NCBI GenBank assembly: GCA_013286575.1
Contig: JABDFL010000006.1
Span: 793 to 44,918 of the forward strand
Origin: Candidatus Omnitrophota bacterium
GTDB lineage: Bacteria > Omnitrophota > Gorgyraeia > Zapsychrales > Fredricksoniimonadaceae
Length of the DNA stretch: 44,126 nt
Reading direction: 5' to 3'
Made by a program: the position numbers and the translations under genes. Numbering within the stretch: position 1 is the first letter of the stretch; the number at the start of each line of letters is the position of its first letter. The notes beneath the pieces are model-generated. The model did not search any database. It was not told the origin of the DNA and saw only the letters and a list, made by a program, of their open reading frames with translations. Below are positions 2,420 to 40,187 of the stretch, piece by piece.

Positions 2420-2492
2420 TGGTGCTGGTTAAATGGTGTTGTTCCCGAAACGGGATATTTTGGCCGTCCGCAACACCATTTAACCAGCACCA
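2420..2492. repeat. Perfect 22-bp inverted repeat (arms 2420-2441 and 2471-2492) with nested TCCCG-AAA-CGGGA hairpin
   Basis: tggtgctggttaaatggtgttg / caacaccatttaaccagcacca; one arm includes the last codons and stop of the amidotransferase gene. Confidence 0.9.
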
Positions 2493-3187
2493 GTGATAAT
2501 TTCCAAGAAATTTTGGTACAACCGTTGCGCCTGGGCATCAAATACTTGTTTGTGTTTCCAATAATCTTCCATCATGGACTTCGCATGCCCCATGCGCCCG
2601 GGCAGATCTGTTGCACAATATTCATCACACCATTCCTTGATGCTCTTGTCCGTCACCTCGACATGAAATTGCAAGCCATAGGCATTTTCCCCGACCTTCA
2701 GGGCCTGGTGAGGGCAGCCCTCAGCGCTGGCCAATAATTTTCCGTTTGAAGGGATTTGAAACATGTCCCCATGCCAATGATAAATAGGATCAGCTTCACG
2801 GTAACCTTTAAACAAGGGATCTTTTTTCCCTTCCGCTGTCAATGCCACCCGGTACCAGCCGATCTCTTTGACCGGTGACTTGACGACACGCGCACCAGCG
2901 GCCTTGGCCAATAATTGCGAGCCTAAACATATCCCTAAATACGGCACGCCTGCCTTTAAGGTTTTTTGAATAAAATCATTTTCGGGCTTGAGAAACGAAA
3001 AACGGTCTTCCTCATCGACATTCATAGGCCCGCCTAAAACCACCACCGCTTTAAAAACTTTTGGGTCAGGAGGCAGAGGCTCGCCTGCCCCAAGCTCAAC
3101 AATGCGAAAAGCCTCTCCCCGGGCCTTCAAAAAATCACCCAAGGTCCCCGGGCCTTCGATATCAATGTGCTTAACGATCAAAATCAT
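2480..3187 (-). CDS. Class I glutamine amidotransferase (GMP synthase-like)
   Basis: VVLGGPMNV, GICLGSQLLAKAAGA (nucleophile Cys elbow), GLQFHVEVT. Confidence 0.9.
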   Translation of the reverse strand: MILIVKHIDIEGPGTLGDFLKARGEAFRIVELGAGEPLPPDPKVFKAVVVLGGPMNVDEEDRFSFLKPENDFIQKTLKAGVPYLGICLGSQLLAKAAGARVVKSPVKEIGWYRVALTAEGKKDPLFKGYREADPIYHWHGDMFQIPSNGKLLASAEGCPHQALKVGENAYGLQFHVEVTDKSIKEWCDEYCATDLPGRMGHAKSMMEDYWKHKQVFDAQAQRLYQNFLEIITGAG

Positions 3188-3258: not shown

Positions 3259-5400
3259 TTACGCGTTCATCAACAGTATTTCCGCGTAACTGGGCAAAGG
3301 CCAGATATTCGCCGGGACTAAAGCTTCCAGCGCATCAATGGACTCGCGCAATTTGAGCATAGCGCCGGAAATCTTAAGCCCATCATGTTTTTCCAGGGTT
3401 GCCTCCAGGGCATTGCAATCGGTTAAAGACTTCTCGATCAAACCGGAGAGTTCCTTAAGCAATTTCTTTTGGCCTGTGGTCTTTCCAGCAGCACCGACGG
3501 ATTTGATCGTGTCCGCCAGCTGTTTCTGGTATTCCATGGCTGCCGGGATCAACTGGGTCTTGGCCATGGTTAAGGCACAATCGCCTTCCAGGATTTGGAC
3601 CGTATTGTAAGCATGTTTGTTGATCTCATAACGGGAAGCCATTTCCACTTCACTCAAAACCCCGTGCTTGACCATGACCTGGATATTTTTCTTGGCCTTG
3701 ATCACCTCGAGGGCTTCGGGAGTATTTTTCATGTTGGGCAGGCCGCGTTTTTTAGCTTCGACTTGCCATTCCTGAATATAACCATCCCCGTTATAAACCA
3801 CCCTCTTGTGCTTCTTGATGATCTCTTGAAGGACTTTTTGCAGGCTTGAATTGAAATCCTTGCCTGCTTTTTTATCCGCTTCCAATTTATCGCAGATATC
3901 GCTGATAGCTTCTGCGACGATGGTATTAAGCACCATGTTAGGGGCAGAAGGGTTCTGGTTGGAACCGACGGCGCGGAATTCGAATTTAGCGCCTGTAAAA
4001 GCAAACGGAGAGGTGCGGTTGCGGTCAGTCGTGTCCTTGGCTAAAACAGGCAAAGAATCAACACCCACATGGATGCTGCCGCCTTCCTTGGATGACTTGG
4101 CCGCGCCCTTTTCAATTTGCTCGATAATATCGGTCAACTGGGACCCTAAAAAGATGGATACGATCGCCGGAGGCGCTTCGTTGGCACCCAGGCGATGATC
4201 ATTGCCCGCAGTGGCGACGGTGACGCGTAAAAGATCAGCGTAAGAATCCACGGCTTGGATGACCGCGCATAACATGGCCAAAAATTTGGCATTTTCATGC
4301 GGGGTCTTGCCCGGATACAGCCAATTCTTACCGTCGGGACCGACCACCGACCAGTTATTATGTTTACCGGAACCGTTGATGCCGGCAAAAGGCTTCTCAT
4401 GCAACAGGCAGGTAAGGCCATGCTTGTCTGCGATCTGGCGCATGAGGTCCATAACGATCATATTGTGATCAACGCCGGAATTCAGATCTTCATAAATCGG
4501 GGCCATTTCATACTGGGCCGGAGCGACTTCATTATGACGGGTCTTGGAAGGAATGCCCAAAGCCCACAAGGCGCGGTCTAAATCTTCCATGAAACCCATG
4601 ATGCGGGGCTTGATGGCGCCGAAATAATGGTCTTCCTGCTGTTGATGTTTGGCCGGCTTTTTGCCGAACAAGGTGCGTCCGGTTTGGACCAGATCAAGGC
4701 GGGCTTCATAATGGGCCTTATCAATAAGAAAATATTCCTGCTCAGGGCCTAAGGTGCAGTAGGCGCGTTTGCCCTTGGTATCGATCCCAAAAAGACCGGC
4801 CAAACGGCAAACCTGCTTGCTTAAAGCCGCCATGGAGCGCAGCAAAGGTGTTTTCTTGTCCAAGGCCTCGCCATGATAGCCGATATAGAATGTCGGGATG
4901 CACAAGGTTGTTGCTTCCGGACCTTCTTTAATAAAAGCCGGAGACGTCGGGTCCCAGCCGGTATAACCGCGGGCCTCAAAGGTCGCGCGCAAACCGCCGG
5001 AGGGGAAAGAAGAGGCATCCGGCTCGCCCTGAATAAGATTTTTACCGGAGAAATTTAAAACAACACCCCCCTTATCATCCCAATCAATAAAGGAGTCATG
5101 CTTCTCAGCCGTGACACCGGTCAAAGGCTGGAACCAATGGGTATAATGAGTGGCTCCCTTGGAAATGGCCCATTTTTTCATGGCTTCGGCCACTTCATCG
5201 GCGATAGAAGCATCCAGTTTACCGCCTTCTTTAATGGTCTTTTCAATAGAAACGTATGCTTTCGGAGAAAGCATTTCTTTCATCACCTTGAGACTAAATA
5301 CGTTTTCGCCGAAATGTTCAGGCAAATGTTCACTGAAAGAACCGTTGCAGCAGCTCTCCTCAGCGCAAGCCTGAATAACTTCTTCGCGAGCTTGACTCAT
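3259..5400 (-). CDS. glnN: Type III glutamine synthetase (GlnN family)
   Basis: ~713 aa; [75 protein letters not shown]. Start placed at MSQAREEV (AGGAGG upstream) rather than the ORF-track start at 5466. Confidence 0.93.
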
Positions 5401-5433
5401 AGAACTCCTCCTGATATTGATTGTTTTAAAGCA

Positions 5434-5466
5434 GTGTGGGGCCATGATAATACACTGGCCCCACAC
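5434..5466. promoter_or_regulatory. 10-bp perfect stem in the P-II/glnN intergenic region
   Basis: gtgtggggcc-N13-ggccccacac. Confidence 0.6.
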
Positions 5467-5483
5467 TTGTCAAGACTTACATC

Positions 5484-5825
5484 TTAACCGATGGCTTTTG
5501 ATCCTTCTTCGCCGGTACGGATGCGGATACATCTGGGCAGATCCAGGACGAAAATCTTGCCGTCCCCGATCTTGCCGGTGCGGGCCCCTTTAATGATGGC
5601 CTTGATGGTCGGTTCAACGAAATCCTCGTTGACCGCGACCTCCAACTGCACCTTGCGCAGCAAATTACCTGTTTCCTTGACGCCGCGGTAATACTCGTCA
5701 ACACCGACCTGACGGCCGTGACCCACGACTTCGAATACGGTGATCAGATTCACATTCGCCGCATAGAGCTCCTGCTTAACATCATCGAGCTTGTAGGGCT
5801 GAAATATTGCAATGACTAATTTCAT
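5484..5825 (-). CDS. glnB: Nitrogen regulatory protein P-II
   Basis: MKLVIAIFQPYKLDDVKQEL, T-loop GRQVGVDEYYRG with Tyr, B-loop TGKIGDGKIFV. Start at 5825 with AAAGGAGG RBS. Confidence 0.93.
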   Translation of the reverse strand: MKLVIAIFQPYKLDDVKQELYAANVNLITVFEVVGHGRQVGVDEYYRGVKETGNLLRKVQLEVAVNEDFVEPTIKAIIKGARTGKIGDGKIFVLDLPRCIRIRTGEEGSKAIG

Positions 5826-5854
5826 GTAAGAAACCTCCTTTATCATTAATTATA

Positions 5855-7147
5855 TTAGTCTAAAATCGTATAAGCACGCTCATGATGCTGGCTCAAATCA
5901 AGCCCAATGATCTCATCTTCGGCGCTGACACGCATACCGATGGTCTTATCTATGACAAAGCAGATGACCCATGTCATGATAAATGAGAATACGGTAGTCA
6001 CGGAGCAGCCTTTGAGCTGGATCAAAAACTGGCCAGGGTTCCCTTCAGTTACGCCAGTATGTCCGGGATTGACCCAATTTGCGGCAAAAATACCGGTGGC
6101 CAAAGCACCCCAGAGACCGCCGATATAGTGTACGCCGAAAGGATCCAGCGTATCATCATAACCGAATTTCGGTTTGACGAAAGCCACGAAGAAATAACAG
6201 AATACGCTCACTAATAACCCGATCCACAATGAACCTCCGACATTCACGAAACCTGAAGCCGGGGTGATGGCAACTAAACCAGCCACTGCACCTGAAGAAG
6301 CTCCGACCAGGGTTGGCGCGCCTGCAAAGATCCATTCACAAGCAGCCCAGCTGATAGCTGCGGCAGCTGTTGCGGTATTGGTCACAACGAAAGCACTGGT
6401 GGCCAACGGTCCGGCGCAAATAGCTGAACCGGCGTTAAAACCAAACCAGCCGAACCATAATAGAGAAGCACCGATCATGACAAAAGGCACATTATGCATG
6501 CCAGGTTTGTCTGTACCAATGCGTTTGCCTAAGTACAAGGCCGTGGCTAAACCCGCGATACCGGCATCCATGTGCACGACTGTACCACCGGCGAAATCCA
6601 AAACTCCCCATTTGTTTTCAATCCCGTCATGTGACCAGACCATGTGGGCAACAGGGCAATAAACAAAGGTCAACCATAATACGGTAAACCACACCCATGC
6701 TGAGAATTTGACCCTCTCTGCGAAAGAACCGATAACCAATGCCGGCGTAATAACTGCGAACATACACTGGAAGATCATGTAGCATTGATTGGGAACGGTT
6801 GGCCCGTAGGAGGTGGTTGGGTCCCAATTAGCTCCGGGCGCCCAATGATCGGGTGTATAGATGGAGACATTGTTCAGCATGAACCAATCCAGACCGCCGA
6901 CCCATTGTCCTACCCAGCCATGGCCGGGCCCAAAGGCCAAACTATAGCCGTAAACCACCCATAGCACGCTGACTATGGACAAACACATAAAACATTGCAT
7001 CAAAATACTGTTAACATTTTTTCTCCTGACCATGCCTCCATAAAATAAGGCCAGGCCCGGTGCCGTCATCGCCAAAACAAGGGCAGATGAGGCCAGAACC
7101 CACGAGATGTCCCCGTCATTTAGTTGCGGTGCTGGTGTTGTTCCCAT
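5855..7147 (-). CDS. amt: Ammonium transporter Amt
   Basis: FAGGTVVHMDAGIAGLATALYLGKR, MIGASLLWFGWFGFNAGSA, DDTLDPFGVHYIGGLWGALATGIFA. Confidence 0.95.
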   Translation of the reverse strand: MGTTPAPQLNDGDISWVLASSALVLAMTAPGLALFYGGMVRRKNVNSILMQCFMCLSIVSVLWVVYGYSLAFGPGHGWVGQWVGGLDWFMLNNVSIYTPDHWAPGANWDPTTSYGPTVPNQCYMIFQCMFAVITPALVIGSFAERVKFSAWVWFTVLWLTFVYCPVAHMVWSHDGIENKWGVLDFAGGTVVHMDAGIAGLATALYLGKRIGTDKPGMHNVPFVMIGASLLWFGWFGFNAGSAICAGPLATSAFVVTNTATAAAAISWAACEWIFAGAPTLVGASSGAVAGLVAITPASGFVNVGGSLWIGLLVSVFCYFFVAFVKPKFGYDDTLDPFGVHYIGGLWGALATGIFAANWVNPGHTGVTEGNPGQFLIQLKGCSVTTVFSFIMTWVICFVIDKTIGMRVSAEDEIIGLDLSQHHERAYTILD

Positions 7148-7175: not shown

Positions 7176-7295
7176 TTAGACAAGATGCGCTTTAAAAGCC
7201 CAAAACAAACCTAAAGCCAACGCGATTTGGGCCATGGCGAACAGAAACGCCATGCGTTCTGCTTGCTTCATTGATGGTGTTGGGGTAATTCTCAT
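7176..7295 (-). CDS. Small (39 aa) single-TM protein preceding amt
   Basis: MRITPTPSMKQAERMAFLFAMAQIALALGLFWAFKAHLV with strong RBS aaggagggtattcatATG. The ORF-track 97-aa version includes the non-coding leader. Confidence 0.7.
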   Translation of the reverse strand: MRITPTPSMKQAERMAFLFAMAQIALALGLFWAFKAHLV

Positions 7296-7339
7296 ATGAA
7301 TACCCTCCTTTTCTTTGTGAAAACCTTGTTTTGGGCAAT

Positions 7340-7382
7340 AAAAAATCCGGTTCTCATGTGTTTGCTGCCACATAAAACCGGA
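7340..7382 (-). terminator. Attenuator/intrinsic terminator T2 in amt leader
   Basis: - strand TCCGGTTttatgtggcagcaaacacatgagAACCGGA followed by TTTTTT. Confidence 0.8.
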
Positions 7383-7393
7383 CTTCAATGCCC
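7380..7393 (-). promoter_or_regulatory. Antiterminator-like hairpin GGGC[AUUGAA]GUCC overlapping T2 5' arm
   Basis: 4-bp stem and hexaloop with A1 and G4 (ANTAR-binding loop consensus); shares 3 nt with T2. Confidence 0.6.
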
Positions 7394-7400
7394 TTAAATT

Positions 7401-7437
7401 AAAAAATCCCCTTGTATGACTTACCTTCCCAAGAGGA
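7401..7437 (-). terminator. Attenuator/intrinsic terminator T1 in amt leader
   Basis: - strand TCCTCTTG...CAAGGGGA followed by TTTTTT. Confidence 0.7.
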
Positions 7438-7450
7438 CATATCATTGCCC
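7435..7450 (-). promoter_or_regulatory. Antiterminator-like hairpin GGGC[AAUGAUAU]GUCC overlapping T1 5' arm
   Basis: Same stem as the other copies with a 2-nt longer loop; shares 3 nt with T1. Confidence 0.55.
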
Positions 7451-7458
7451 GTGCACAT

Positions 7459-7482
7459 GCCCGAAACATCTATGCTCCGGAC
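7459..7482 (-). promoter_or_regulatory. P1-like hairpin GUCCGGAGC[AUAGAU]GUUUCGGGC of a tandem ANTAR-type RNA motif
   Basis: 9-bp helix including G.U pairs; hexaloop A1/G4; 8 nt upstream of the hairpin at 7435-7450. Confidence 0.6.
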
Positions 7483-7508
7483 TTTTTTAACTTTCATACT
7501 ACGCTGCA

Positions 7509-7537
7509 AATATACCCGCTGGTAAAAAATTTGTCAA
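7509..7537 (-). promoter_or_regulatory. Sigma-70-type promoter of the small ORF-amt-glnB operon
   Basis: TTGACA-17 bp-TATATT read on the - strand. Confidence 0.75.
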
Positions 7538-7544
7538 GTAATTT

Positions 7545-7760
7545 TTATGAGCCCTTGACAATTTGCTCTGCTGCCAGCCAATCCTCGACGTCATAGCCGT
7601 GGGCGCAACCGCGCGCGATAAAAAGTTCATAGGCTGTTTCCTTCACCTTTTGGATATAATCTTCTTTTGAGTAAGTCGTTTGGGCCAAAGGAGTTTCAAA
7701 CCTGTTTTTAGGTGTACTGGTCTTGGCTGATGTCCTTTTAACCGTACTTGTTTGTCTCAT
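7545..7760 (-). CDS. DUF2934-like small protein
   Basis: YIQKVKETAYELFIARGCAHGYDVEDWLAAEQIV resembles the DUF2934 core; RBS gcggagg. Confidence 0.7.
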   Translation of the reverse strand: MRQTSTVKRTSAKTSTPKNRFETPLAQTTYSKEDYIQKVKETAYELFIARGCAHGYDVEDWLAAEQIVKGS

Positions 7761-7782: not shown

Positions 7783-7822
7783 AAAAAATCCTCTCCTTAA
7801 ACCACATTGTTTTAAGAGAGGA
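7783..7822 (-). terminator. Attenuator in the DUF2934 leader
   Basis: - strand CCTCTCTTAAA...TTTAAGGAGAGG followed by ATTTTTT. Confidence 0.75.
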
Positions 7823-7833
7823 CATCACTGCCC
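7820..7833 (-). promoter_or_regulatory. Antiterminator-like hairpin GGGC[AGUGAU]GUCC overlapping the attenuator
   Basis: Hexaloop A1/G4; same stem as in the amt leader. Confidence 0.6.
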
Positions 7834-7849
7834 TTTGACTTACAAATTG

Positions 7850-7877
7850 AGTATACAACCTGGGGTCATTTTGTCAA
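7850..7877 (-). promoter_or_regulatory. Sigma-70-type promoter of the DUF2934 gene
   Basis: TTGACA-16 bp-TATACT on the - strand. Confidence 0.65.
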
Positions 7878-7892
7878 CAAAAAACTTCGACC

Positions 7893-9140
7893 CTACTTCT
7901 GCAGCTCCGCCATCAAAATGACCGACTCGGCGATGTCCTTCATGCTCCGGCAGGTATCCATGCTTTTTTTGTGGATCAGGCGGTATGCGGCTTCTTCGGT
8001 GAGATTATTCATCTTCATTAATATGCCCTTGGCCCGCTCAATGAGTTTACGGGTTTCCAGGGCTTCGCGGGCTTTAAGGGCTTCCTGCATCAGCTTGGTG
8101 TTCTCCACCGCCACCGCGGCCTGGTTGGCAACTATTTGCAGCACGCTGATTTCTTCATCATCAAAATGATGCGGCTGCTTGGTATAGACATTGATGACCC
8201 CGATGGCCTTATCTTTGACCACCATCGGCACAGCGACCATGGAAGTCAACCCTTCTTTAAGGGCCAGGTCGCGGTAGGCGTATTTCTCATCCTTGCTGAC
8301 ATCATAGACAACCGCGGGCTTTTTGGATTTGATAACGCTGCCGGTCAGGCTGTTCTCTACCTTAATATTAGGCTTTTGTTTATACTCCGCGCTTAAGGAT
8401 TGGGTGGCCTTGATAGAAAGTTCAACACCCTTTTCATCCAAAAGCATGATGGAACATATCTTGGAATTGAGCATTTCAGCCGTGACCACCACGATCAGGT
8501 CAAGGATTTCTTCCAAATAATCTTCGCTCGTAATCGAACGGCTGACCTTGATCAGAGAGTCAAACTGCAGGGCTTTTTTCTTTGTTTCCTCAAAAAGCCG
8601 GGCATGCTCAATGATGCCGCCGACCTGTTTGGCGATCATTTCAATCAGGTTCACTGTCTCCGTCGAATAATCCTGCTGGCTTTTATGCTGGACATTCACG
8701 ACCCCGATGGCTTTTCCCTTATATATGACCGGAACGGACAAAAAAGCCTCGTAACGGTCTTCGGGAAGAACATCAAAACTTTTAAAACGCGGGTCGCGGT
8801 AGGCGCGGGACTTGATGGCCACTGTCTTGTTCTCACGGGCCACCCAGCCGGTGATCCCCTCGCCGGTTTTCAAGACCACATTGCCCAGTTCTTTTTTATG
8901 CGCGGTCTTGGAGGCCATCAGCACGAGGTTTTGCTTGCTCTCATCAAAAAGATAGATAAAGACAGAATCCGCATCTGTCATTTCAGTCACAATTTTGACA
9001 ATCAACTGCAGGGTGAGATTTAAGTCGAGCTCAGATGAAGCAATATCAACGACATTGCGAAGGATCTGCAATTCCTGGTCCGCGGTCACGCTTAATTTTC
9101 TATTTTTTATTTTTTCAGCCATAAGGCAATAAGATACCAC
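7893..9140 (-). CDS. GAF-GAF-ANTAR transcription antitermination regulator
   Basis: Two GAF domains (e.g. GEGITGWVARENKTVAIKS; SLTGSVIKSKKPAVVYDV) and C-terminal ETRKLIERAKGILMKMNNLTEEAAYRLIHKKSMDTCRSMKDIAESVI (ANTAR); GTG start with GGGAGG RBS. Confidence 0.9.
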   Translation of the reverse strand: MVSYCLMAEKIKNRKLSVTADQELQILRNVVDIASSELDLNLTLQLIVKIVTEMTDADSVFIYLFDESKQNLVLMASKTAHKKELGNVVLKTGEGITGWVARENKTVAIKSRAYRDPRFKSFDVLPEDRYEAFLSVPVIYKGKAIGVVNVQHKSQQDYSTETVNLIEMIAKQVGGIIEHARLFEETKKKALQFDSLIKVSRSITSEDYLEEILDLIVVVTAEMLNSKICSIMLLDEKGVELSIKATQSLSAEYKQKPNIKVENSLTGSVIKSKKPAVVYDVSKDEKYAYRDLALKEGLTSMVAVPMVVKDKAIGVINVYTKQPHHFDDEEISVLQIVANQAAVAVENTKLMQEALKAREALETRKLIERAKGILMKMNNLTEEAAYRLIHKKSMDTCRSMKDIAESVILMAELQK

Positions 9141-9286
9141 ATGTGCCTCCCGCCCACAAGAACTTTGATGACAGAAGTTTATTCATCAAAAATGCAGTAT
9201 CCTCTTGACAATATTATGTTTATTTCTATGATTAGAGGATATAATACCTTCTTTAATAATAATTAAGGCAATCTTTTCTAAAAAGC

Positions 9287-9808
9287 ATGTCTCCTTTTTT
9301 CTTTTATCTTTTTGCGGCAATCCTGATTTTTGCAAGCCTTGCGGTCATCCTGGCACGAAATCCCCTGTATAATGTTTTGGCCCTAGTCGTCGCTATTTTT
9401 TCATTGTCCTGCCTCTTTGTGCTGCTTGAAGCATTCTTTGTCGGCATGATCCTTCTTTTGGTCTACGCGGGCGCGGTACTCGTTTTCTTCCTCTTTGTGG
9501 TCATGTGCCTGAACCTTAATACCGTTGTGCTCTCATCCCAACAGCAAACCCGTTTTCGCTGGTTGGGCAGCTTCGTGGGGCTGATGTTCCTGTTCTCTTT
9601 TGCTTTAGCCGCCAAAAGTTTTATCAGGGCCCATGCCATGGAGCCCTCTTCGATCCGCGGGACCATTGAGGTCATCGGCAAAATTCTTTTTACGGATTAT
9701 CTGCTGCCCTTTGAATTGACATCATTTCTTTTATTGATCGCGATCTTCGGGATTGTTTCGCTGGCCCAGGGCGCGTTAAGCACAGGAAAAGACTCGGAAA
9801 ACCTATGA
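9287..9808 (+). CDS. nuoJ: NADH-quinone oxidoreductase subunit J
   Basis: NPLYNVLALVVAIFSLSCLFVLLEAFFVGMILLLVYAGAVLVFFLFVVMCLNL. Confidence 0.93.
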   Translation: MSPFFFYLFAAILIFASLAVILARNPLYNVLALVVAIFSLSCLFVLLEAFFVGMILLLVYAGAVLVFFLFVVMCLNLNTVVLSSQQQTRFRWLGSFVGLMFLFSFALAAKSFIRAHAMEPSSIRGTIEVIGKILFTDYLLPFELTSFLLLIAIFGIVSLAQGALSTGKDSENL

Positions 9809-10148: not shown

Positions 10149-12062
10149 ATGATAAATGCTAACTTAGTCTGGATAGCTTTTTTCGCGCCGCTGGCGGCGT
10201 GTGTCCTTATTACGTTATTTTTCTTAAAATGCAAGACATCCAGCTCGCTGATTGCCATCGCCGGCATCCTAACTTCTTTTGTTTGCAGCTGTTTGGTCTT
10301 TACTCAAATATTCCAAACCAATCCTCCGGCAGAACTCCAGCAATCCTTAAGCTGGATCTCAATTGATTCCCTTACCATTAATTTCGGTTTCCTGATCAAC
10401 CCCCTGGCCATCATGATGCTCTTGATCGTCACCGGTGTCGGCAGCGCCATTTTTATCTATTCCAGAGGATACATGGATGAAGACCCCAGCGCCCCCAGGT
10501 TCTTCGCGTATTTAAGCCTTTTCGCCTTCTCCATGATAGGCATTGTCCTGTCCAATAATTTTATCCAGCTGTTCATCTTCTGGGAGTTGGTGGGGCTTTC
10601 TTCCTATCTCTTGATCGGTTTCTGGTATGCCAAGCCTTCTGCCGCGGACGCGGGGGTCAAGGCCTTCATGGTCAACCGTTTATCTGACTTCGGTTTCCTG
10701 TGCGGGATCATTTTGTTATGGAGCGTCTCTGATATCGGGAGCGGCCGCAGTTTTCAATTCACAAACTTAATGCCGGTGATTGCCCATATTGATCCTCACA
10801 TGCTTACCATCATCGGCCTGCTGCTTTTCTGCGGTGTTGTTGGAAAATCCGCCCAGGTCCCGCTGCACGTCTGGCTTATCGATGCCATGGAAGGCCCCAC
10901 ACCGGTCAGCGCTTTGATCCACGCAGCCACCATGGTGGCTGCCGGTATTTATCTTTTAGCCCGCACCTTCTTTATTTTTGAACCATCCACCACAGCGCTG
11001 ACGATCATCGCCTATACAGGGGCCATCACGTCCCTCATGGCCGCCATCCTGGCCGTCGCTGAGAATGATATCAAAAGGATACTGGCTTATTCGACGCTCA
11101 GTCAATTGGGTTTAATGGTCATGGCCTTGGGGCTGGGCGGCCCTATGCAGGGGATGTATCACCTGACAACCCACGCCTTTTTTAAAGCGCTTTTGTTCCT
11201 GGGTGCCGGTAGTGTGATTTACGCTCTTCATCATGAACAAAATATCTGGAACATGCAGGGGCTTTTAAAGAAAATGCCCGTCACCGGCATCACCTTTCTT
11301 ATCGGGACCCTGGCCCTTTGCGGTATTTTCCCTTTAAGCGGTTTTTGGAGCAAGGACGGGATTTTGGCCCTGGCTTATACAAACAACACCGTCCTTTATT
11401 TGATCGCCGCAACAGCCAGCGGTTTAACGGCCTTTTATATGGGACGGTTATTCTTTGTGGCTTTTTGGGGCGATGCCCCTGCCTCGCGTCATGGGGCGCA
11501 TAACCACGAAATTCATGAATCCCCGGCAGTGATGACGCTTCCCTTGATCGTCCTGGCTATTCTCTCGGCCATTGGCGGTTATATAGGAATACCTCATTAT
11601 CTGTTTCCGCAGGAAGCCCCTGAATCACTTAATATGCGGGTCGCCTTAATCTCTTCCGTTGTTGCCCTTTTAGGTTTGGGGTTTGCATACATGATCTACG
11701 GCAAACGCACGGCGAGCGATCCTTTGGTAACAAAGCTCGGGGTTTTCTATACTGTTTTACAAAATAAATTTTATTTTGACATTGTTTATGCCTGGTATGT
11801 TGATAATATCCAGCAAAATGTGGCCCTGGCCTTGTTCCGCATCGAAAACGGGATCATTGACCGCGCCATCATTGACGGCATTGCCAACCTGGCCCGTGTC
11901 GGCGGTAAAGCTTTCCGTTATTTGCAAAATGGCATTGTCCAGTCCTATGCCCTGGTTTTTGTTCTCGGTGCTGTCTTATTGTTCCTGTTTTTAATTAAGT
12001 CCTATACTTTAATTTTCGTTGTCGGCATTGTTCCGTTATTATTGTTCTTATTGTTGGCTTAA
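10149..12062 (+). CDS. nuoL: NADH-quinone oxidoreductase subunit L
   Basis: FWELVGLSSYLLIGFW, GKSAQVPLHVWLIDAMEGPTPVSALIHAATMVAAGIYLL. Confidence 0.95.
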   Translation: MINANLVWIAFFAPLAACVLITLFFLKCKTSSSLIAIAGILTSFVCSCLVFTQIFQTNPPAELQQSLSWISIDSLTINFGFLINPLAIMMLLIVTGVGSAIFIYSRGYMDEDPSAPRFFAYLSLFAFSMIGIVLSNNFIQLFIFWELVGLSSYLLIGFWYAKPSAADAGVKAFMVNRLSDFGFLCGIILLWSVSDIGSGRSFQFTNLMPVIAHIDPHMLTIIGLLLFCGVVGKSAQVPLHVWLIDAMEGPTPVSALIHAATMVAAGIYLLARTFFIFEPSTTALTIIAYTGAITSLMAAILAVAENDIKRILAYSTLSQLGLMVMALGLGGPMQGMYHLTTHAFFKALLFLGAGSVIYALHHEQNIWNMQGLLKKMPVTGITFLIGTLALCGIFPLSGFWSKDGILALAYTNNTVLYLIAATASGLTAFYMGRLFFVAFWGDAPASRHGAHNHEIHESPAVMTLPLIVLAILSAIGGYIGIPHYLFPQEAPESLNMRVALISSVVALLGLGFAYMIYGKRTASDPLVTKLGVFYTVLQNKFYFDIVYAWYVDNIQQNVALALFRIENGIIDRAIIDGIANLARVGGKAFRYLQNGIVQSYALVFVLGAVLLFLFLIKSYTLIFVVGIVPLLLFLLLA

Positions 12063-31073: not shown

Positions 31074-34000
31074 TTAATTCGAATTAAACATCAACTGAAA
31101 AGCGCCATTGACCGTCAGTCGGGGGGTGAAGCGGATAATGTTGAAATCAAACCCTTTAAAATCCTCAGGCATGCTTAAAGCAGCGGCATCAAAGAGACTG
31201 TCAGGGCTCTGCGAAGACCGTTGGATGAACTGAGGCTGGAAATTAAGATCAATCCCGCCGGGGGATTTGTTTGAAGTAGAAATTGCGGCCTGATCAGCCG
31301 AATTTCTTCCATGACCATTGCCATTAACAGCCGCCCTTACCCTGCTGTTAACTGCCATTCTTCTGTGGCCATTCCCATTACGCGGCGATATTGCATTTAG
31401 TTTGAAAATTTCAGCCCCTCGGTGCGGCACAAATGCGCTGACATTGATATCAGGATCTACTGTTTGAGCGATCACGCTGTAAAGATCCCGTAAGGCCTCA
31501 GTGGTCTCCGCACGTTTTCCATCATTCTCTATCCCCTGGATATCATCCCATTCAATCCGCTCCCTCCAATAATCATCCAATTCCCTGTTCAACTGAAACT
31601 CATCCTCTTTGAAAAGTTTTGCGATAAGGATCGGGATCACAAAATCACTGGTAAAATGCAGCGTACTTAATTTTTGCCTCAATTTCTCATTATCCATATT
31701 CCTTATGATCTCATCAAACATATCCACCGCCTCAGGCCCCATGGTGATCATGCCGTTGAAAGCTGAGTATTGTTTAAATACCGGATTGGACAAAATATAT
31801 AACTTTTCCTTAAGATGTTTAAAGATACCCGAACCCCGGGGCTTTCTCGTCTGCGCCAATGAAGAAATATGCAGTTTCTCAAGAATTGCAGCGATCTTCG
31901 GGTCACCATTCAAATTAAAATCCGAATCGATAAATGCCAGCGAACTCAATTCATCCTCGTTTACCCGAGAAGTCGATAGCGTTATATCCGCTCCCTTAAT
32001 ATGTTTTATTGGCCCCGAATAGGTGTTCCGCAGGTACCTGATGATAATTCCCTTATTGGGTGATCCTGCCGGCAATGATTGTGTCAGGCTTACGGCACCC
32101 CGATATCCGTCAATGATAGCTCTTCTGAGCATAACATCCAGGGGCCCGGGCGCGTCTTTATCAATAAAGATATACATGACCTGCTTATTTTTCCACTTTG
32201 CTCTCATCGCCTGAAAAGCGTCCACAAAAGAATTCCCCGTGCCCTCAGGGTTTAAATCCAAAACATCAACATAGGCTTCATCTCTTATTATCTTATCGGG
32301 ATCGTCTTTATTTTTCCTGCGTTGTTCTTCCTTATATGCGTTTGCAGCCTGTACTCCTTTTCGGTCTTCAGGAATAAGGATTATTGCATCCAACCTTTCT
32401 TTATCCAGGGCGATTTTGCCTTCCTCAACGGCGAGATCTTCAATATTTTTTTCCTGGCTGCTCACGCCAATTTTGTAATCTCCCCCCAGCCCTTCTTTTA
32501 GCCGGGCATCAAGTTTATTTATGACCACATCTATGGTATATTTCCAGGAAGGGTTGAGACTGATCAAATTCCTGATGACATAGGAACCATATACTGCAAG
32601 AGAGAGAATGGATGCTGATAACTGCCCCAGCACCACCCATAATAAAGGTTGTCCCAAAAAGGCCCCTATTGGCCATGATAAGGCCGTTACGGTGATTGCA
32701 ACAGCTCCCGCAATCCTCCCTAACATACTTCCAAATTTATGATGGGTGTTGCCTCCAGGGGTGGTGGATTTAGTATAGGTTGATGTGGATTCTATGACTT
32801 TGTCCAAATTTTTTTGGCTTTCTCTTACTATCTCTTCCGGTTTTACATGAAAATCCGGCATCAATTCATTAGTGTCTGTTACTAAATCATGGACGCCATT
32901 CTTAGGGAATAAATTATTATACGCACTGCTTTTTACCCAATAATAAAGCATGACGAAGCGCGTATATGGATAAATCCATAGCAATTGCCACGATTCTAAT
33001 GGATGCCCTTCTTTGTATTTGTACCTATTATAATTGTCGATATCGCCCCTCCAGCCCATAACAGGTGTAGCCCTTTCGGCAACAAGCCTCAGGCTTTTCA
33101 TCATCCGGTTGATGTCTTGCTTATACCTCAGGCGCTGATCTTTTCTCAATTTCACCCCTTGGCGGCGTTCATTGTTCAAACGTTCTGATAATTCATAAAG
33201 TGCTTGGGCCACCAACAGAAAGAAACTGCCGTACGTTTGAGTATACTCCGCATGCCTGGCTGAACCATTCATCAAATCCGAGGAATAAGGCGTTACAGTC
33301 AGCACTTCATCAGCCAGGTTAATGATAGTATTGAGATCATTTTGTATATCTTCTGTGGACCTATCTTTTGACAATCCTTTAATCAAATTCTGCAAATTTT
33401 CTAAAGGTTTATAAGCAGGCGCGTCTTTAGGGACAGATACAAGATTTAAGTCTTCCCCATTTTCATCCGTTTTTAAACCGATGTTCAATTCTTTGCTTAA
33501 AATTTTAAGTAATTTGGGTATATTATACCGTTTCTTAAAGATTGCTCCCCGAAAAACATAGGAAACTACAAGGCCCAAAATTCCCCCCAATATTCCCAAT
33601 ACCCATAACTGTCCTTCCATAACCAAAGGAATGCTCTGGTCATTTTTTATGATACGCTCAGCAATGGTCTTTCTAAGAGTATCTAATTTTTCAGCCATTG
33701 GTTTTGTCTGGGGATCTTGTTTTAATTCTTCAAAATGCTTTTCAAACTCCTGGGGATCAGGGTACATCTGCAAGTACTCTTTGACTGTACGCACCGCTCT
33801 CTCATCTCCCTTTGTACGTGTTTCATAGGCCCTCCATGGTACCGGTTTGCTATTGTTTACATCATCTGCGACTTTTACCGCCCAGCCCATTGATTCCATG
33901 TTGATTTGACGCCTTATAGGCGCGTCTTTGACAGGATCACCTGTCAAAAGTAAGTGCAATTGCTGCATAGGATACGTGCTCAAACGCAAAGCCAAAAGCA

Positions 34001-37000
34001 ATGATTTTTGATCTGCCTGGCCTGTTCTACCGGCCATTCTTTCCAAAGCAGCGCGGATAACGCGTATGGTAAGGGCGTCTTGGCTGGGGTGCACACCATT
34101 TTCTGCAGAAGCCTTTTCACGGATAGTTTGTATGTCTTTCTCGAGTATCTCTCCCCAATCGTAGTGGTTATCAATAAAATTGTGAAAATCAGGGTCATTT
34201 GATCCCAGATCGACCTGCAAAACTAAAATACGGCCCTCCAAAGTTTTCCCCAGGCGATCTGCTATGTCAGCCCGCACCTGTGAGGGGAAAGGCAGCAAAG
34301 AAGCTAACGCCGCACCGCTGAGATTAGCGATATATTTTTTCTGGCCATCTTTGTCCGAATGTTCGAAATAAGCATTCCGGATAGGCCGGTATGCAAGGTC
34401 GTAGTCCGTAAGCCCTGGAGCAGGAGCTGGTGTAAAATTAGGCAGCATATCCTGGGTGGCCGTAAGGGCCCGTCGGTACAAATTCGGTTTGACAGTACCT
34501 AATTCTTGTACAGGGGGTGATGTATTTAATAAAAACCGTGTGTCTTCCTGGAAGTTTTGAAAGATGCCGCGTGATATAAAATCGATATCAGGATATAAGA
34601 ATGACATGGGGTCGTAGTTGCCTAAATAAAAACTGGACCTAACGTTGTCCCAAATATTCTGTCTAAAAATCGACGCCTGGATATCTTGGGCAATTTTGAC
34701 GGCCTGAGGATCGTTGGCATGATTTGCCTCGAAATTCTTAAGTATCCTCAACTGATCATCAGGTCCCCAATAAAGCTGTAAAAGCCGGATCTTAGCCATT
34801 GTATTGACCGGGTCGCTGGATAGATAATTCAAGAAGACATTTTCTAACGCCCCGGAACTAATGCCAGGATAGGCAATGCCGGCGGATAATTGTTTTAATT
34901 TCTGCTCGTCTTGCAGCAGATTATCTAATGATTGGTAAATAGTATTAAGATAAGATTCCTTTGTTTTTGCTCCGGGGGCATTGGTGATCAATCGAATAAG
35001 GTGAGACAATTCGTTACGTTCCACAAAATGCCTGCAAATCTCCAAAATCACGTCTTGGTAGGGCGAATCCTTGGCGATTTGAATAATTGTCTGGTAAAAT
35101 CCCGGCCGGTCTGCATATTGTGTAAGAAATAAATTAAGCAACTCTGCCCGATGGAAAATATTAGGGTCTAAGAGCGCCTCCTGCCAGGCTTGTGTTGTAC
35201 CGTTGGCCATTAAGACTTCCAAATATTCCGGAGACACTCCTTGAGGATAGACGAAGGTTACAACACCGGGCATTAAGTACTCAGGGGCAACCCTGGGTTC
35301 ATGATTGACATCAGGTAAAGGTACTGACATCACCGCTGCAGGCCGTGTGACATGCATCCCGCCGCCGATACCAACCGGTGCAGTGCTTGGCGAAGACGGC
35401 TCCTCCAGCTGGGACAAGGACGAAAAACTGTTGGAACCACCCATAGCCTCAAGTCTGGCCCTTTGGATAAATGCGTTTTGCTGGTCATTAATGGCCTTAA
35501 TGCTTCTATTGTGGGCTTCTACAAATAATCCGACTGAATCTTCCGGTGAAGACCCTCCAGCCAAACGCGCATTCCCAAAATCTGCTTGGGCTGCTTGCCG
35601 GTCTAAATCTGCCTGGTTGCCCGAACCCTCGGAGTTTGCTGCGGTGGATGACAGGGCGCCGATGATATTTTGTTTTGCTTCTTCTAAATCCACCTCTGCT
35701 TTTGTCCAGTTATAAATCAAAGCTTCACCTGTATTGACGGGATTTATCTGCTTTAGCCCCTCCTGTTTCATTTTTTGTGAAAGGGCCTGGCCTGCTGGGG
35801 ACATAACATAAGTCCTCCCAGGCCCCGGGTCTACTAAATAGCTGATCGCTCCGTCTCCTTGAGGCGGATTGGCCTGAAAACCCGCTTGGATTTTATCCAT
35901 TGCCTTGTGATACTCTGCCAGTGCTGCCTGCCATTGCGGATTTTGATCCAAAGCGCCGGTATTGCCTTGATTGGACTTCATATCAACCGGCGGCAAACTG
36001 GCATGCCATGGCAATCTTCCCGAGATCGGACCTGTTTGGCCGGTCAAAGTGTTATACGCAATAGTTTCTTGGTTGATCTGGCTTTGCCAGTTGACGATAT
36101 CATTTCTTAAGTTAGCGATGGCATTGATACCGCTCGACGAAAAGGGTTTACCTGTAATAGCAGCCCCTCTGCCACTGACCCATGAGTTCAATTGTTCTAG
36201 CCTGACCAAGTCTTCTTCTGTTTGACGTATCTTTTCTTCTAACGCAATGACTTTAATTTTATGCGCATAGGCCTGGGCCACCTTTTCCGAAATATTGGCT
36301 TGTAGTTGACTGTCTGCCGCCTTGACAGCATTGGCAATCTGGTCTCCGCTATACGTTCCTACTAAACTAGGAATAACCTGAGGTCCTTGACTTCTATTCA
36401 TTACCGCTGCTGTATTATTTTGAATCACCTGTTCTCTTATTTCTGAAAATCCTTGCAAGGCAGAGCCGCCGGAAACCCCAACGCGCCCGGACGATGGGGC
36501 AGCTGCTCGTGGAGTTGGAGTCATGCCTGTGGTTGCAGTAGCCTGCGGCGGGACTTTTGCTTGCTGTGGCTGTGGCTCTTCGGCCACGGCAGGAGCTTGG
36601 ATGGCTTCTTGTTGATTGATCTTATTTAGGACAGCTTCAACAATGGTCCGGCCATTATCATCAGGTTGAATAAGTTTTACAGGAAATCCCTGGTTGACAA
36701 GGCCGGGACCACCATAAATCTTGAACCTAGCGCCTTTATAGCCCGTCATGATGCCTTTAGAAGTTTTTAAAGGAGAAATGACCTCTGTTACCACTGCCGG
36801 CAGGCTAATGCCGTTGATTTGGGCCAAAATCAACGTCCCTTCGCTGATCTTGGCACTTTCAGGCACGGGCACAGGATTTTCCGCGGTACCCACAAAAGCA
36901 ATACCTGTGCCCACTTCAATGACCGAATTCCCTCTATTAAAAATTCCGGAATCCTCGACGACCTGTCTTACAATCCCGGGTCTGGTGGCATGCAATTCCC

Positions 37001-40000
37001 TCATCCGCATGATTTGGTCCCAAATCACCTTTTCCCTGGCCTCTAGGGCATGTAATTGTTCTTCCGGCCCGCTTCTTTGGATGATAGGAAGAAATCGCAT
37101 CTGATCATTGAAGACTTGCTTGGCAGCGGCAATAGTCACAAGCTCTTGCAGCAAAGCTGTGTCGTCTTGATAGCCCATTGATCGGCCTTGGGCCACTTGA
37201 TCGGCTGTTATCACGTCTCCTGGCTCTATCTGCCTATGCAATTCGCCCTCTGCAGGTACTTCTATCTTGTAGCTTCCGACATCGGAAATTTGGTCATGCG
37301 CCAGGAATGTACCGCTGATGGCGTTGAGCTCAGGGTAAGGCGGATCAAACGGTATAAAATCAATGTCTATTGATTTTGGCATGTTGTTTTGATCAATAGG
37401 GGTGTCAAGCAGCAATACCATTCTTACTTGGACTTTTTTCTCTTGGGGGTCAGTACTTCCTTCGGCGCTAAAAACACTAAGGACCTTGTGCCCTGGGATC
37501 GTGACCTTCATTTTATGGCCAGCCAGGAGCCGGGCATCAATGTCAATATTGGTGATAATCTCTTGTCTGTCTAATTCCGTAAAAAGATCTTCATCTTTAT
37601 TCACAAGCTGACCGTTTTGTAATTTTGAATCGTCCAGGATCTTCGATTGGTGCGTGGCCCGGATTTCAACAAGATTGTCTTCCAGGTCTTGCTTATATTT
37701 CGCCTCTGCCAGCGCCAGAGCGATTTGAGGATCGGCCCCTTCTTGAGAGGTCGCCAAGCCGCTTATCCCTGATACCCTGGCTATCTCGCTCTCTATGTTT
37801 CTCTGGTCTGCTTCAAGGAGACCTTTTAAATCCGGACTCTCAATTTTGGCTTGAAGATCACCGGCGTTATACTCCCCGTGATTTGGAACAACTTCCTTTA
37901 TGATACCTGTGATTTTAGCCCTACGGGTGTGATGATTAAATGAAAAGTCAACGCCATCTTGATGAACATGTTCCGGCGTTGAAGATCCACCTACACCGGC
38001 AGGTGCTTGGGAAGTAGAACTTGCTGCCGGGGGCGGCACAGGCGCGGGAGCCGGTATACTAACTGCCCCGGAAACAGGTTGCTGGCTGGCAGGTGGTGTT
38101 GAAAAAGAGTTCGCAGCCAACGGCGCAAGCGTCGTCGGCGCAGGCAGTGCTGCCGCAACAGGTGCCGGTGGAATCGGGGGCACAGGCAATGTCAAATGAT
38201 CAGGTGGTGGTGGAGACGGCGATCCTCCTGCTGCTTGCAGCGGTGCAGGTGGCTGTGCCGGCAAAGCTGTTTGAGTGGGTGCAGGCGCCGCGGCAGGCGG
38301 TGTAACAGCCCTCGTCGGATGCGTTTGAGGAGCCACCGGTTGGAGGTGCGCCATTGGCGTAGCGACAACTGCTGCCGCTGGTCTTGGTGCTGCTAGCTCT
38401 GGACTGCTCCCACCAGATCCGCTGCCGTTACCGACGGCCTGGGAAACTGCAAGAGGAAAAAGCACTTCCGGACGGTCAATTTCAACGGTATCACCAACAT
38501 GCATGTGTTTAAAATCAGTAATCTTGGGATTAAATGTTTTGATGACCCTTTCAAATGCGCCGTCCTTGCCCCATAAAGGCATATAGGTAAATCCTGCCCG
38601 CTGCAGCATCCCACCGAAACCAAGCCTGCCGTCTGTTGGCTCGACTGTCAGCGTTATTTTTTGAGTCGCTTTAACAGGCGTTGGGTTTACGACAGGAGCA
38701 GGTGTTTGATCAACTGATGAAGCAGGGATCGCCGGTGCATTTGAGGCTATCTGAAATGGCTTAGCTGATTCGTCTTGATTCTTCGCTAGCGACTTAGACA
38801 CGGCTTCTGTCCATTGCCGCTGTTGGAAAAGTTGGATGGCTAACGCATCTACAGAGGATGTTTGATTTTGTGCAGGCGGGGTGGCCACTTTGGCCTGGGC
38901 CACTGCTCCCAGCGGGTTTGCAAGCTGAGAGGCCCAAACCATACCCAAGACCATTCTCTTCCATGCTGGGAGGCTGCTTTTGTTTTGAGACAAAGATCCC
39001 CTCATGGCTTGGTCACCCACCAATTGGTCCATATTAACGCCAATGGGATGGAGTTCAACTTTTTCCAACATGGCTGAATCAGCATCTTGGGCAAAGACCT
39101 TTGTTATCATGGCCGGACTAAAAGCCCGTAAAGTGTGCTCCCACTGCGAGGACATCGCAAAATTACACCCGCCGGAGAAATATTTACGCGGCACCACCTG
39201 TTGAGAAATAGGATCAACGTCTTCGCGGATATAGTTATAAGCGCCGACCTTGTAGATGCGTAAATACTGCTTGTAGATCTTTTCTTTAGCATCTTTGTCG
39301 ATACCATCAACACCGGAGATCTTCTTCTTATTGACATATACTTCAGAAAGAATGTTCCTTCTTAGGGCACGCTTAAACCAGTCTGCCAGAATGATGGAAT
39401 GAAAGATCTGCCGGACAGGGGCAAAATTCTTTCCTTCATTGATCTCTTTTTCCAATTCAGGAAGGATGATCTCTTTTGTAATGCTGGCGGATATCTCCTG
39501 GCCGGCACTTGACTTTCTATCTCCGGCAGTCAGATGTTTCTTCATCGCCAGATAATCCGCTTCCAACATGACCTTCAAATGCGTATGCCCGATCATGGCA
39601 ATATTGCCCATATCATAGACAATGGCTTGATCAGGGACGATCCAGACCTTATTATAGGTATTGACCGGAAGATCGGTGGTGCCGAATTTCTGGTAGGCTT
39701 TCTTGTAAACCAGGTCCCAAAATTTCTTGCCCAGCTTTGATTCCGGATAGGTCAAGGAAGAAGCCAGTTGCTTTAAGAGTTTATCCTGATTGAGAAGATT
39801 GTTGCCAACATCGGTCAAGGACAATTCATTGGGAATGATCCGTCCGGATTCATACGGAGAGAGATTGACCCAAAGGTCTTCTTCGGGGATGGTAAGCGAG
39901 GTCAAAAAATATTTGATAAGCAAGGCCGTGTCCTTCGGAGTCATATTGCGGCGATCTCCTGAATCAACCACAAAATCGAACTCAAAAGGTTTATCAGGGT

Positions 40001-40187
40001 AAACGCGCATGCCGCGTAAAACAGGCGTGGAATAGGGAATGGAAAGATCGAGGAAATAGTTGTGGGGGGCTGGTAAAAAAGGGGTGCCTTGCGCCTGCAC
40101 TTGTTCAAGGCTGTTTTGGACCAATAAAATGGCCAATAAACAGCATATTGTTCGAAAAACCCTGGATTTTTTGTTAATTAATGACAT
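31074..40187 (-). CDS. Giant (3037 aa) multidomain envelope protein: N-terminal signal, lineage-type N-terminal domain, LysM-like motif, Pro-rich linker, HlyD/MFP-like domain, TolC-like coiled coil, helical repeats, 3 TM segments, C-terminal GT-like cytoplasmic domain, GGID-type tail
   Basis: Single uninterrupted ORF; domain calls by motif reading only. Confidence 0.75.
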   Translation of the reverse strand: MSLINKKSRVFRTICCLLAILLVQNSLEQVQAQGTPFLPAPHNYFLDLSIPYSTPVLRGMRVYPDKPFEFDFVVDSGDRRNMTPKDTALLIKYFLTSLTIPEEDLWVNLSPYESGRIIPNELSLTDVGNNLLNQDKLLKQLASSLTYPESKLGKKFWDLVYKKAYQKFGTTDLPVNTYNKVWIVPDQAIVYDMGNIAMIGHTHLKVMLEADYLAMKKHLTAGDRKSSAGQEISASITKEIILPELEKEINEGKNFAPVRQIFHSIILADWFKRALRRNILSEVYVNKKKISGVDGIDKDAKEKIYKQYLRIYKVGAYNYIREDVDPISQQVVPRKYFSGGCNFAMSSQWEHTLRAFSPAMITKVFAQDADSAMLEKVELHPIGVNMDQLVGDQAMRGSLSQNKSSLPAWKRMVLGMVWASQLANPLGAVAQAKVATPPAQNQTSSVDALAIQLFQQRQWTEAVSKSLAKNQDESAKPFQIASNAPAIPASSVDQTPAPVVNPTPVKATQKITLTVEPTDGRLGFGGMLQRAGFTYMPLWGKDGAFERVIKTFNPKITDFKHMHVGDTVEIDRPEVLFPLAVSQAVGNGSGSGGSSPELAAPRPAAAVVATPMAHLQPVAPQTHPTRAVTPPAAAPAPTQTALPAQPPAPLQAAGGSPSPPPPDHLTLPVPPIPPAPVAAALPAPTTLAPLAANSFSTPPASQQPVSGAVSIPAPAPVPPPAASSTSQAPAGVGGSSTPEHVHQDGVDFSFNHHTRRAKITGIIKEVVPNHGEYNAGDLQAKIESPDLKGLLEADQRNIESEIARVSGISGLATSQEGADPQIALALAEAKYKQDLEDNLVEIRATHQSKILDDSKLQNGQLVNKDEDLFTELDRQEIITNIDIDARLLAGHKMKVTIPGHKVLSVFSAEGSTDPQEKKVQVRMVLLLDTPIDQNNMPKSIDIDFIPFDPPYPELNAISGTFLAHDQISDVGSYKIEVPAEGELHRQIEPGDVITADQVAQGRSMGYQDDTALLQELVTIAAAKQVFNDQMRFLPIIQRSGPEEQLHALEAREKVIWDQIMRMRELHATRPGIVRQVVEDSGIFNRGNSVIEVGTGIAFVGTAENPVPVPESAKISEGTLILAQINGISLPAVVTEVISPLKTSKGIMTGYKGARFKIYGGPGLVNQGFPVKLIQPDDNGRTIVEAVLNKINQQEAIQAPAVAEEPQPQQAKVPPQATATTGMTPTPRAAAPSSGRVGVSGGSALQGFSEIREQVIQNNTAAVMNRSQGPQVIPSLVGTYSGDQIANAVKAADSQLQANISEKVAQAYAHKIKVIALEEKIRQTEEDLVRLEQLNSWVSGRGAAITGKPFSSSGINAIANLRNDIVNWQSQINQETIAYNTLTGQTGPISGRLPWHASLPPVDMKSNQGNTGALDQNPQWQAALAEYHKAMDKIQAGFQANPPQGDGAISYLVDPGPGRTYVMSPAGQALSQKMKQEGLKQINPVNTGEALIYNWTKAEVDLEEAKQNIIGALSSTAANSEGSGNQADLDRQAAQADFGNARLAGGSSPEDSVGLFVEAHNRSIKAINDQQNAFIQRARLEAMGGSNSFSSLSQLEEPSSPSTAPVGIGGGMHVTRPAAVMSVPLPDVNHEPRVAPEYLMPGVVTFVYPQGVSPEYLEVLMANGTTQAWQEALLDPNIFHRAELLNLFLTQYADRPGFYQTIIQIAKDSPYQDVILEICRHFVERNELSHLIRLITNAPGAKTKESYLNTIYQSLDNLLQDEQKLKQLSAGIAYPGISSGALENVFLNYLSSDPVNTMAKIRLLQLYWGPDDQLRILKNFEANHANDPQAVKIAQDIQASIFRQNIWDNVRSSFYLGNYDPMSFLYPDIDFISRGIFQNFQEDTRFLLNTSPPVQELGTVKPNLYRRALTATQDMLPNFTPAPAPGLTDYDLAYRPIRNAYFEHSDKDGQKKYIANLSGAALASLLPFPSQVRADIADRLGKTLEGRILVLQVDLGSNDPDFHNFIDNHYDWGEILEKDIQTIREKASAENGVHPSQDALTIRVIRAALERMAGRTGQADQKSLLLALRLSTYPMQQLHLLLTGDPVKDAPIRRQINMESMGWAVKVADDVNNSKPVPWRAYETRTKGDERAVRTVKEYLQMYPDPQEFEKHFEELKQDPQTKPMAEKLDTLRKTIAERIIKNDQSIPLVMEGQLWVLGILGGILGLVVSYVFRGAIFKKRYNIPKLLKILSKELNIGLKTDENGEDLNLVSVPKDAPAYKPLENLQNLIKGLSKDRSTEDIQNDLNTIINLADEVLTVTPYSSDLMNGSARHAEYTQTYGSFFLLVAQALYELSERLNNERRQGVKLRKDQRLRYKQDINRMMKSLRLVAERATPVMGWRGDIDNYNRYKYKEGHPLESWQLLWIYPYTRFVMLYYWVKSSAYNNLFPKNGVHDLVTDTNELMPDFHVKPEEIVRESQKNLDKVIESTSTYTKSTTPGGNTHHKFGSMLGRIAGAVAITVTALSWPIGAFLGQPLLWVVLGQLSASILSLAVYGSYVIRNLISLNPSWKYTIDVVINKLDARLKEGLGGDYKIGVSSQEKNIEDLAVEEGKIALDKERLDAIILIPEDRKGVQAANAYKEEQRRKNKDDPDKIIRDEAYVDVLDLNPEGTGNSFVDAFQAMRAKWKNKQVMYIFIDKDAPGPLDVMLRRAIIDGYRGAVSLTQSLPAGSPNKGIIIRYLRNTYSGPIKHIKGADITLSTSRVNEDELSSLAFIDSDFNLNGDPKIAAILEKLHISSLAQTRKPRGSGIFKHLKEKLYILSNPVFKQYSAFNGMITMGPEAVDMFDEIIRNMDNEKLRQKLSTLHFTSDFVIPILIAKLFKEDEFQLNRELDDYWRERIEWDDIQGIENDGKRAETTEALRDLYSVIAQTVDPDINVSAFVPHRGAEIFKLNAISPRNGNGHRRMAVNSRVRAAVNGNGHGRNSADQAAISTSNKSPGGIDLNFQPQFIQRSSQSPDSLFDAAALSMPEDFKGFDFNIIRFTPRLTVNGAFQLMFNSN

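Follow-up and report, generated by a model that had tools for sequence, protein, structure and literature searches.

How are genes for nitrogen assimilation controlled in Omnitrophota, a phylum described as being without isolates (PMC10066038), and why should the leader of an ammonium transporter operon carry two intrinsic terminators in series? Both questions are raised by a window of 44,126 nucleotides, the whole stretch of DNA analysed here, to which all coordinates refer. The original prediction placed a leader (leader B) with tandem ANTAR-type hairpins and two terminators on the minus strand ahead of amt and glnB. A base-by-base check of this strand located each element at the coordinates claimed for it. 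The promoter (7509–7537) consists of TTGACA (7537–7532), a 17 nt spacer and TATATT (7514–7509), and is followed by hairpin i, here P1 (7459–7482; GUCCGGAGC[AUAGAU]GUUUCGGGC), with 9 bp and the loop AUAGAU. Hairpin ii (7435–7450; GGGC[AAUGAUAU]GUCC, 8-nt loop) is the P2 switch hairpin of terminator T1 (7401–7437), which pairs UCCUCUUG (7437–7430) with CAAGGGGA (7414–7407) before a U6 tract. Hairpin iii (7380–7393; GGGC[AUUGAA]GUCC) is the switch hairpin of terminator T2 (7340–7382), whose stem (7382–7346) precedes another U6 tract and bears an 8-nt apical loop, GCAGCAAA, with R1 and G4. A ribosome-binding site and an ATG at 7295 complete the leader. Its predicted folding also held up in RNAfold, where it was more stable than dinucleotide shuffles (-65.4 versus -44.2 ± 3.9 kcal/mol; z -5.5).

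Pfam matches bear out the proposed amt/P-II/glutamine synthetase cluster downstream on the same strand. The first gene of leader B is a 39-aa ORF with a hydrophobic stretch (7176–7295), which has counterparts in the genus (47–68%) and one further counterpart (45%) in another genus. It is followed by the ammonium transporter Amt (5855–7147; PF00909), a glnB-type P-II protein (5484–5846; PF00543), a type III glutamine synthetase (GSIII; 3259–5466; PF12437, PF00120, PF18318), a class I glutamine amidotransferase (2480–3187; PF00117) and a glutamine-dependent NAD synthetase (800–2404; PF02540, PF00795). Genes for Amt, GlnB and glutamine synthetase are generally known as riboswitch targets in other phyla, and the leader could in principle be a metabolite riboswitch or a leader-peptide attenuator with coincidentally ANTAR-like loops. 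We consider this highly improbable: Rfam scans at gathering and permissive thresholds gave no relevant match, the 39-aa ORF sits downstream of both terminators, and the loop signature, the adjacent ANTAR gene and the co-occurrence reported below all favour ANTAR.

The ANTAR gene, which the original prediction had overlooked, lies immediately upstream of the leaders (7893–9140, minus strand). It encodes a GAF-GAF-ANTAR protein of 415 aa (PF03861, E 2e-21, over the cut-off), the only ANTAR match in this 52% complete genome, and we presume it to be the RNA-binding antiterminator. In an alignment with EutV (6wsh), R142, K143, K149, E160, Y164 and M172 are identical, K147 is replaced by R and R168 by H (6wsh chain numbering, offset by 2 from that of the paper); in the EutV crystal structure, residues of this RNA contact set touch the hexaloop (PMC8934654). 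Across the order, orthologues with 63–96% identity are present in 48 of the 55 genomes, a further genome having a partial one, and more distant homologues (~50% identity) are found in Nitrospirota and Elusimicrobia. The first GAF domain resembles that of PtsP (3ci6, E 2e-23; a PRK11061 match in two stretches, at E 2e-41, fell short of the cut-off) and the second that of NifA, below the cut-off. The PtsP GAF domain is glutamine-binding in alpha-proteobacteria (PMC4848567), and likeness to PtsP and NifA thus makes glutamine or 2-oxoglutarate a plausible signal of the regulator. Elsewhere in the window, a TTGACA-16-TATGAT promoter-like site on the plus strand (9205–9287) precedes a divergent nuo-type cluster and points away from the ANTAR gene, and a single 3037-aa ORF on the minus strand (31074–40187) is without a Pfam match.

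A second leader, absent from the original prediction, lies between the regulator gene and a DUF2934 ORF of 71 aa (7545–7760, minus strand; PF11154, E 3e-11), the first gene behind it; small ORFs akin to this protein occupy the same place in the genus. This leader A (7877–7783, minus strand) has a TTGACA-16-TATACT promoter (7850–7877), a switch hairpin GGGC[AGUGAU]GUCC (7820–7833) that begins 16 nt past the -10 box, and a terminator UCCUCUCUUAAAAC[AAUGUG]GUUUAAGGAGAGGA-U6 (7783–7822), the apical hexaloop of which has A1 and G4. In a mechanical scan for [A/G]NNG-loop hairpins with a 3' arm reaching into an intrinsic terminator, the window contained three such elements (hairpins ii and iii of leader B, and that of leader A), whereas 60 dinucleotide shuffles averaged 0.03. 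Switch hairpin and terminator have a UCC in common in all three attenuators, in leader A the terminator's 5' UCC. The loops with A1 and G4 are AUAGAU, AAUGAU(AU), AUUGAA, AGUGAU and AAUGUG, and relatives sometimes have G at position 1.

Conservation in relatives supports the ANTAR reading of leader B, together with the regulator gene next to it. We aligned nine homologous amt leaders of the family over P1, P2 and T1, in which P1 and P2 are paired in 99% of cells. Lack of stem covariation in homologous leaders had been named as grounds for refutation; the reading passes this test in P1, where seven of nine pairs are compensatory, with changes on both sides, and the C-G and G-U pairs below the loop are invariant. 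The GGGC/GUCC switch stem of T1 is almost invariant (three of four pairs fixed; G-U changed to A-U in two leaders) and hardly varies enough to provide covariation evidence, so that for this stem the proposal found little to work on. Terminators were likewise expected in relatives, and T1 is kept in all nine family leaders and T2 in seven. The loop of hairpin ii had been noted as a deviation from the hexaloop rule; its length does deviate, and the T1 switch loop is 7–8 nt in all nine leaders with A1, G4 and A5 invariant, which marks it as a conserved family variant and not noise. We also considered this loop as an A-U closed hexaloop, AUGAUA, and rejected it because relatives do not keep the A-U closure but do keep A1, G4 and A5 when loop positions are numbered from the C-G pair.

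The motif extends across the order. A scan of 80 related loci with ANTAR orthologues that presupposed no loop, and required only a stem of at least 4 pairs plus a loop overlapping a terminator, returned 115 hexaloops on the gene-sense strand versus 41 on the other strand. Of the sense-strand hexaloops, 61 have A1, 66 have G4 and 56 have A5, a bias that is absent from the opposite strand. The specific pattern gave 125 matches in 45 of the 55 order genomes, against ~16 control matches; in other Omnitrophota classes it is seldom seen. It matches in 44 of 49 order genomes with the ANTAR gene and in one of six without it (p 4e-4); among class-I leaders there are some that resemble copied cassettes, and since some cassettes were apparently copied between genes, the counts are not fully independent and this and the other p-values given here overstate independence. 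Across the order, there are 110 distinct elements in 83 leaders, with one attenuator in 60 leaders, two in 19 and three in 4. The two-step arrangement had been called unusual, a description that this survey corrects: leader B is not peculiar in this respect, since a series of two or three attenuators is present in 23 of the 83 leaders.

The genes behind the attenuators are mostly nitrogen genes, including amt-glnB and GSIII. Others are nifH (L114, L194), nirB (L116, with a 156-aa NirB-like start in L189), carA (L207), a DUF2126 amidoligase (L183) and, in L216, the ANTAR gene itself. Porins are also among the downstream genes. Attenuators stand directly before genes for probable outer-membrane beta-barrels, perhaps porins for nitrogen compounds, in L190 and L198, and a barrel or unknown protein lies slightly further downstream in L203 and L173. 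In a genome of another Omnitrophota class (G124; L224, L225), three serial attenuators precede porin-like and amt-like genes and two precede GSIII, these genes being named by eye from translations, and apical hexaloops recur there. An ANTAR protein was not found in G124 (77% complete) or in G014 (69% complete), although both carry elements. Outside the phylum, a P1-P2-terminator leader of ANTAR type before NAD synthetase in Nitrospira (L138, L140; ~11100–11230) suggests, from its sequence features, that this gene is an ANTAR target as well.

Taken together, these computational lines of support give high confidence that the leaders are under ANTAR control, and it is very probable that the locus belongs to an ANTAR-controlled nitrogen regulon in which the regulator opens serial attenuators through hexaloops, with either P1 or a terminator apex as the second loop. 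The second half of this reading concerns a premise of the original prediction, namely that ANTAR hairpins come in pairs with hexanucleotide loops, of which the second overlaps a terminator. At T1, the upstream P1 has a hexaloop and P2 an 8-nt loop. Hairpin iii does not share P1; at T2, as in leader A, one hexaloop overlaps the terminator without an adjacent upstream P1, and a second loop is found at the terminator apex, of 6 nt in leader A and 8 nt in T2.

This difference recurs across the order. Measured from the -10 box, switch hairpin positions are bimodal, lying either 13–19 nt (proximal) or mostly 41–60 nt (distal) away, and an upstream hexaloop hairpin is present in 27 of 34 distal elements versus none of 22 proximal ones, which leave no room for it upstream; the common P1-P2 gap is 6–14 nt. 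Conversely, a C-G closed RNNGNN apical hexaloop is found in 14 of 22 proximal but 2 of 34 distal elements (p 4e-6). The same apex, C[RNNGNN]G, occurs in 33 of 110 element terminators and in 11 of 625 unrelated terminators at the same loci (p 1e-20), where tetraloops that are not G-C closed were counted as hexaloops in both sets, RNAfold pairing A1 with U6 in such loops so that raw apical loop sizes undercount hexaloops. The apical hexaloop stands before several different genes. Its strict form is absent in 8 of the 22 promoter-proximal elements, and the spacing between switch hairpin and apical loop barely differs from that in other terminators (a weak difference, p 0.02). A fresh genome set pointed in the same direction, with the apex in three of five near elements and neither of two far ones, and is too small for an apex rule. 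We had also considered proximal elements as true single-hexaloop attenuators, a view dropped when terminator apices proved to be enriched for the same loop. The T2 switch hairpin falls under this second layout, and its partner loop seems to be T2's own apex.

Constrained folds indicate how such an apex might be used. At 2.5 kcal/mol in leader A, 4.6 at T1 and 5.7 at T2, the cost of imposing the switch hairpin is small, and the upper terminator stem is preserved. In leader A, this upper stem keeps its hexaloop and abuts the switch hairpin, with the U-tract parted from the stem; the antiterminated state would thus be a dual-hexaloop structure. We hold with moderate confidence that the apical layout is real. 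The full proposal is that it forms a second architecture for ANTAR antitermination, in which an intrinsic terminator bears the ANTAR hexaloop at its apex, and moving 3 bp at its foot turns it into a switch hairpin plus a shortened terminator, together a dual-hexaloop target. Such an attenuator could sit at the transcription start, and attenuators could be chained, each apex serving the next. Our judgement of this proposal is evenly balanced between acceptance and doubt.

The same folds bear on the idea that terminated leader RNAs act as a sponge, exposing an ANTAR loop that titrates the regulator in the way that EutV is titrated by an ANTAR-binding small RNA. The apical loop does persist in the terminated RNA and the switch loop does not, and PMC8934654 mentions RNA that sequesters EutV. 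The near mutual exclusion of the apex and an upstream P1 is left unexplained by a sponge, however, and we regard it as improbable. Another reading restricts the ANTAR sites to the switch hairpins and P1, with apical hexaloops that recruit the protein for whichever attenuator comes next in a series, or are relics of such series, and that would be idle in single attenuators. Such recruitment would agree with the model of Walshe 2022, in which P1 recruits the protein and hands it over to P2 (PMC8934654). Moreover, 18 of 28 later tandem elements come after a terminator whose apex is an RNNG hexaloop, and the next element often starts 9–16 nt past the beginning of the U-tract, similar to the P1-P2 gap. 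Yet many single attenuators have the apical hexaloop (leader A, L063, L183, L184, L197), and the apex tracks promoter distance, i.e., the absence of P1, rather than tandemness. This restriction to switch hairpins and P1 is therefore unlikely in our view, and the apex as second loop of its own attenuator is the reading that we retain.

From the sequence, structures, covariation, conservation, co-occurrence and gene context described above, we infer the binding, the antitermination, the signal and the reason for two steps as follows. The GAF-GAF-ANTAR protein (7893–9140) would sense nitrogen status and, when active, bind hexaloop hairpins in the nascent leader RNA. The three-base UCC may either close the terminator base beside the U-tract or pair in the GGGC[ANNGAN]GUCC switch hairpin; ANTAR binding would favour the switch hairpin, so that the terminator base opens and RNA polymerase reads on. 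Leader B would present two checkpoints in series before amt-glnB-GSIII, with the upstream P1 as partner at T1 and, likely, the terminator apex as partner at T2. Leader A would have a single attenuator, of the apical kind, ahead of the DUF2934 ORF, opened by capture of its switch loop together with the terminator apex. Both checkpoints would have to be passed for amt expression, which may give a sharper response. If this is true, a phylum described as being without isolates gains a defined RNA-based nitrogen control, with a regulator that has been named and targets that can be tested, nifH and nirB among them. Two or three serial checkpoints would make expression steeply dependent on regulator activity, a property that can be measured.

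That ANTAR proteins control amt and P-II genes is already known (PMC3369931), as are 13 ANTAR RNA hits in six transcription units of Desulfotomaculum acetoxidans (Ramesh 2012, PMC3369931); neither the kind of regulation nor its multiplicity is thus new in principle. The papers searched gave no account of ANTAR loops at terminator apices or of a tie between such loops and promoter distance. Promoter-proximal attenuators bear on the question of how many hexaloops ANTAR proteins need, one or two, and how the two must be ordered. Walshe 2022 trimmed the minimum needed for binding down to a single hexaloop and held that antitermination needs contact with both loops in turn (PMC8934654).

The leaders of this lineage share ANTAR-dependent release of a leader terminator and the P1 plus P2 arrangement with NasR/nasF and AmiR/amiE (PMC3369931), which differ in having one target operon each and only the classical P1-P2 layout described. 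The nitrogen regulon of D. acetoxidans is similar in that its transcription units, on nitrogen genes, each have several ANTAR RNA hits; it belongs to another phylum, and the text consulted neither states whether hits fall together in one leader nor describes apical hexaloops. The most detailed comparison is with EutV and the eut leaders of Enterococcus faecalis (Ramesh 2012, PMC3369931; Walshe 2022, PMC8934654), which have the same A1/G4 hexaloops, a P2 overlapping an intrinsic terminator, and an ANTAR protein whose RNA-contact residues are largely kept here, where P1 likewise lies upstream of T1. Unlike EutV, which has a REC domain, the regulator here has GAF-GAF as its sensor. The P2 loop of T1 is 7–8 nt, which speaks against the ANTAR reading in so far as EutV is held to select hexaloops by size. 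Leaders of this lineage can also carry two or three attenuators each, and their promoter-proximal attenuators are without P1 and have the terminator apex as probable second hexaloop. The lineage seems to have kept two loops, with the second relocated into the terminator.
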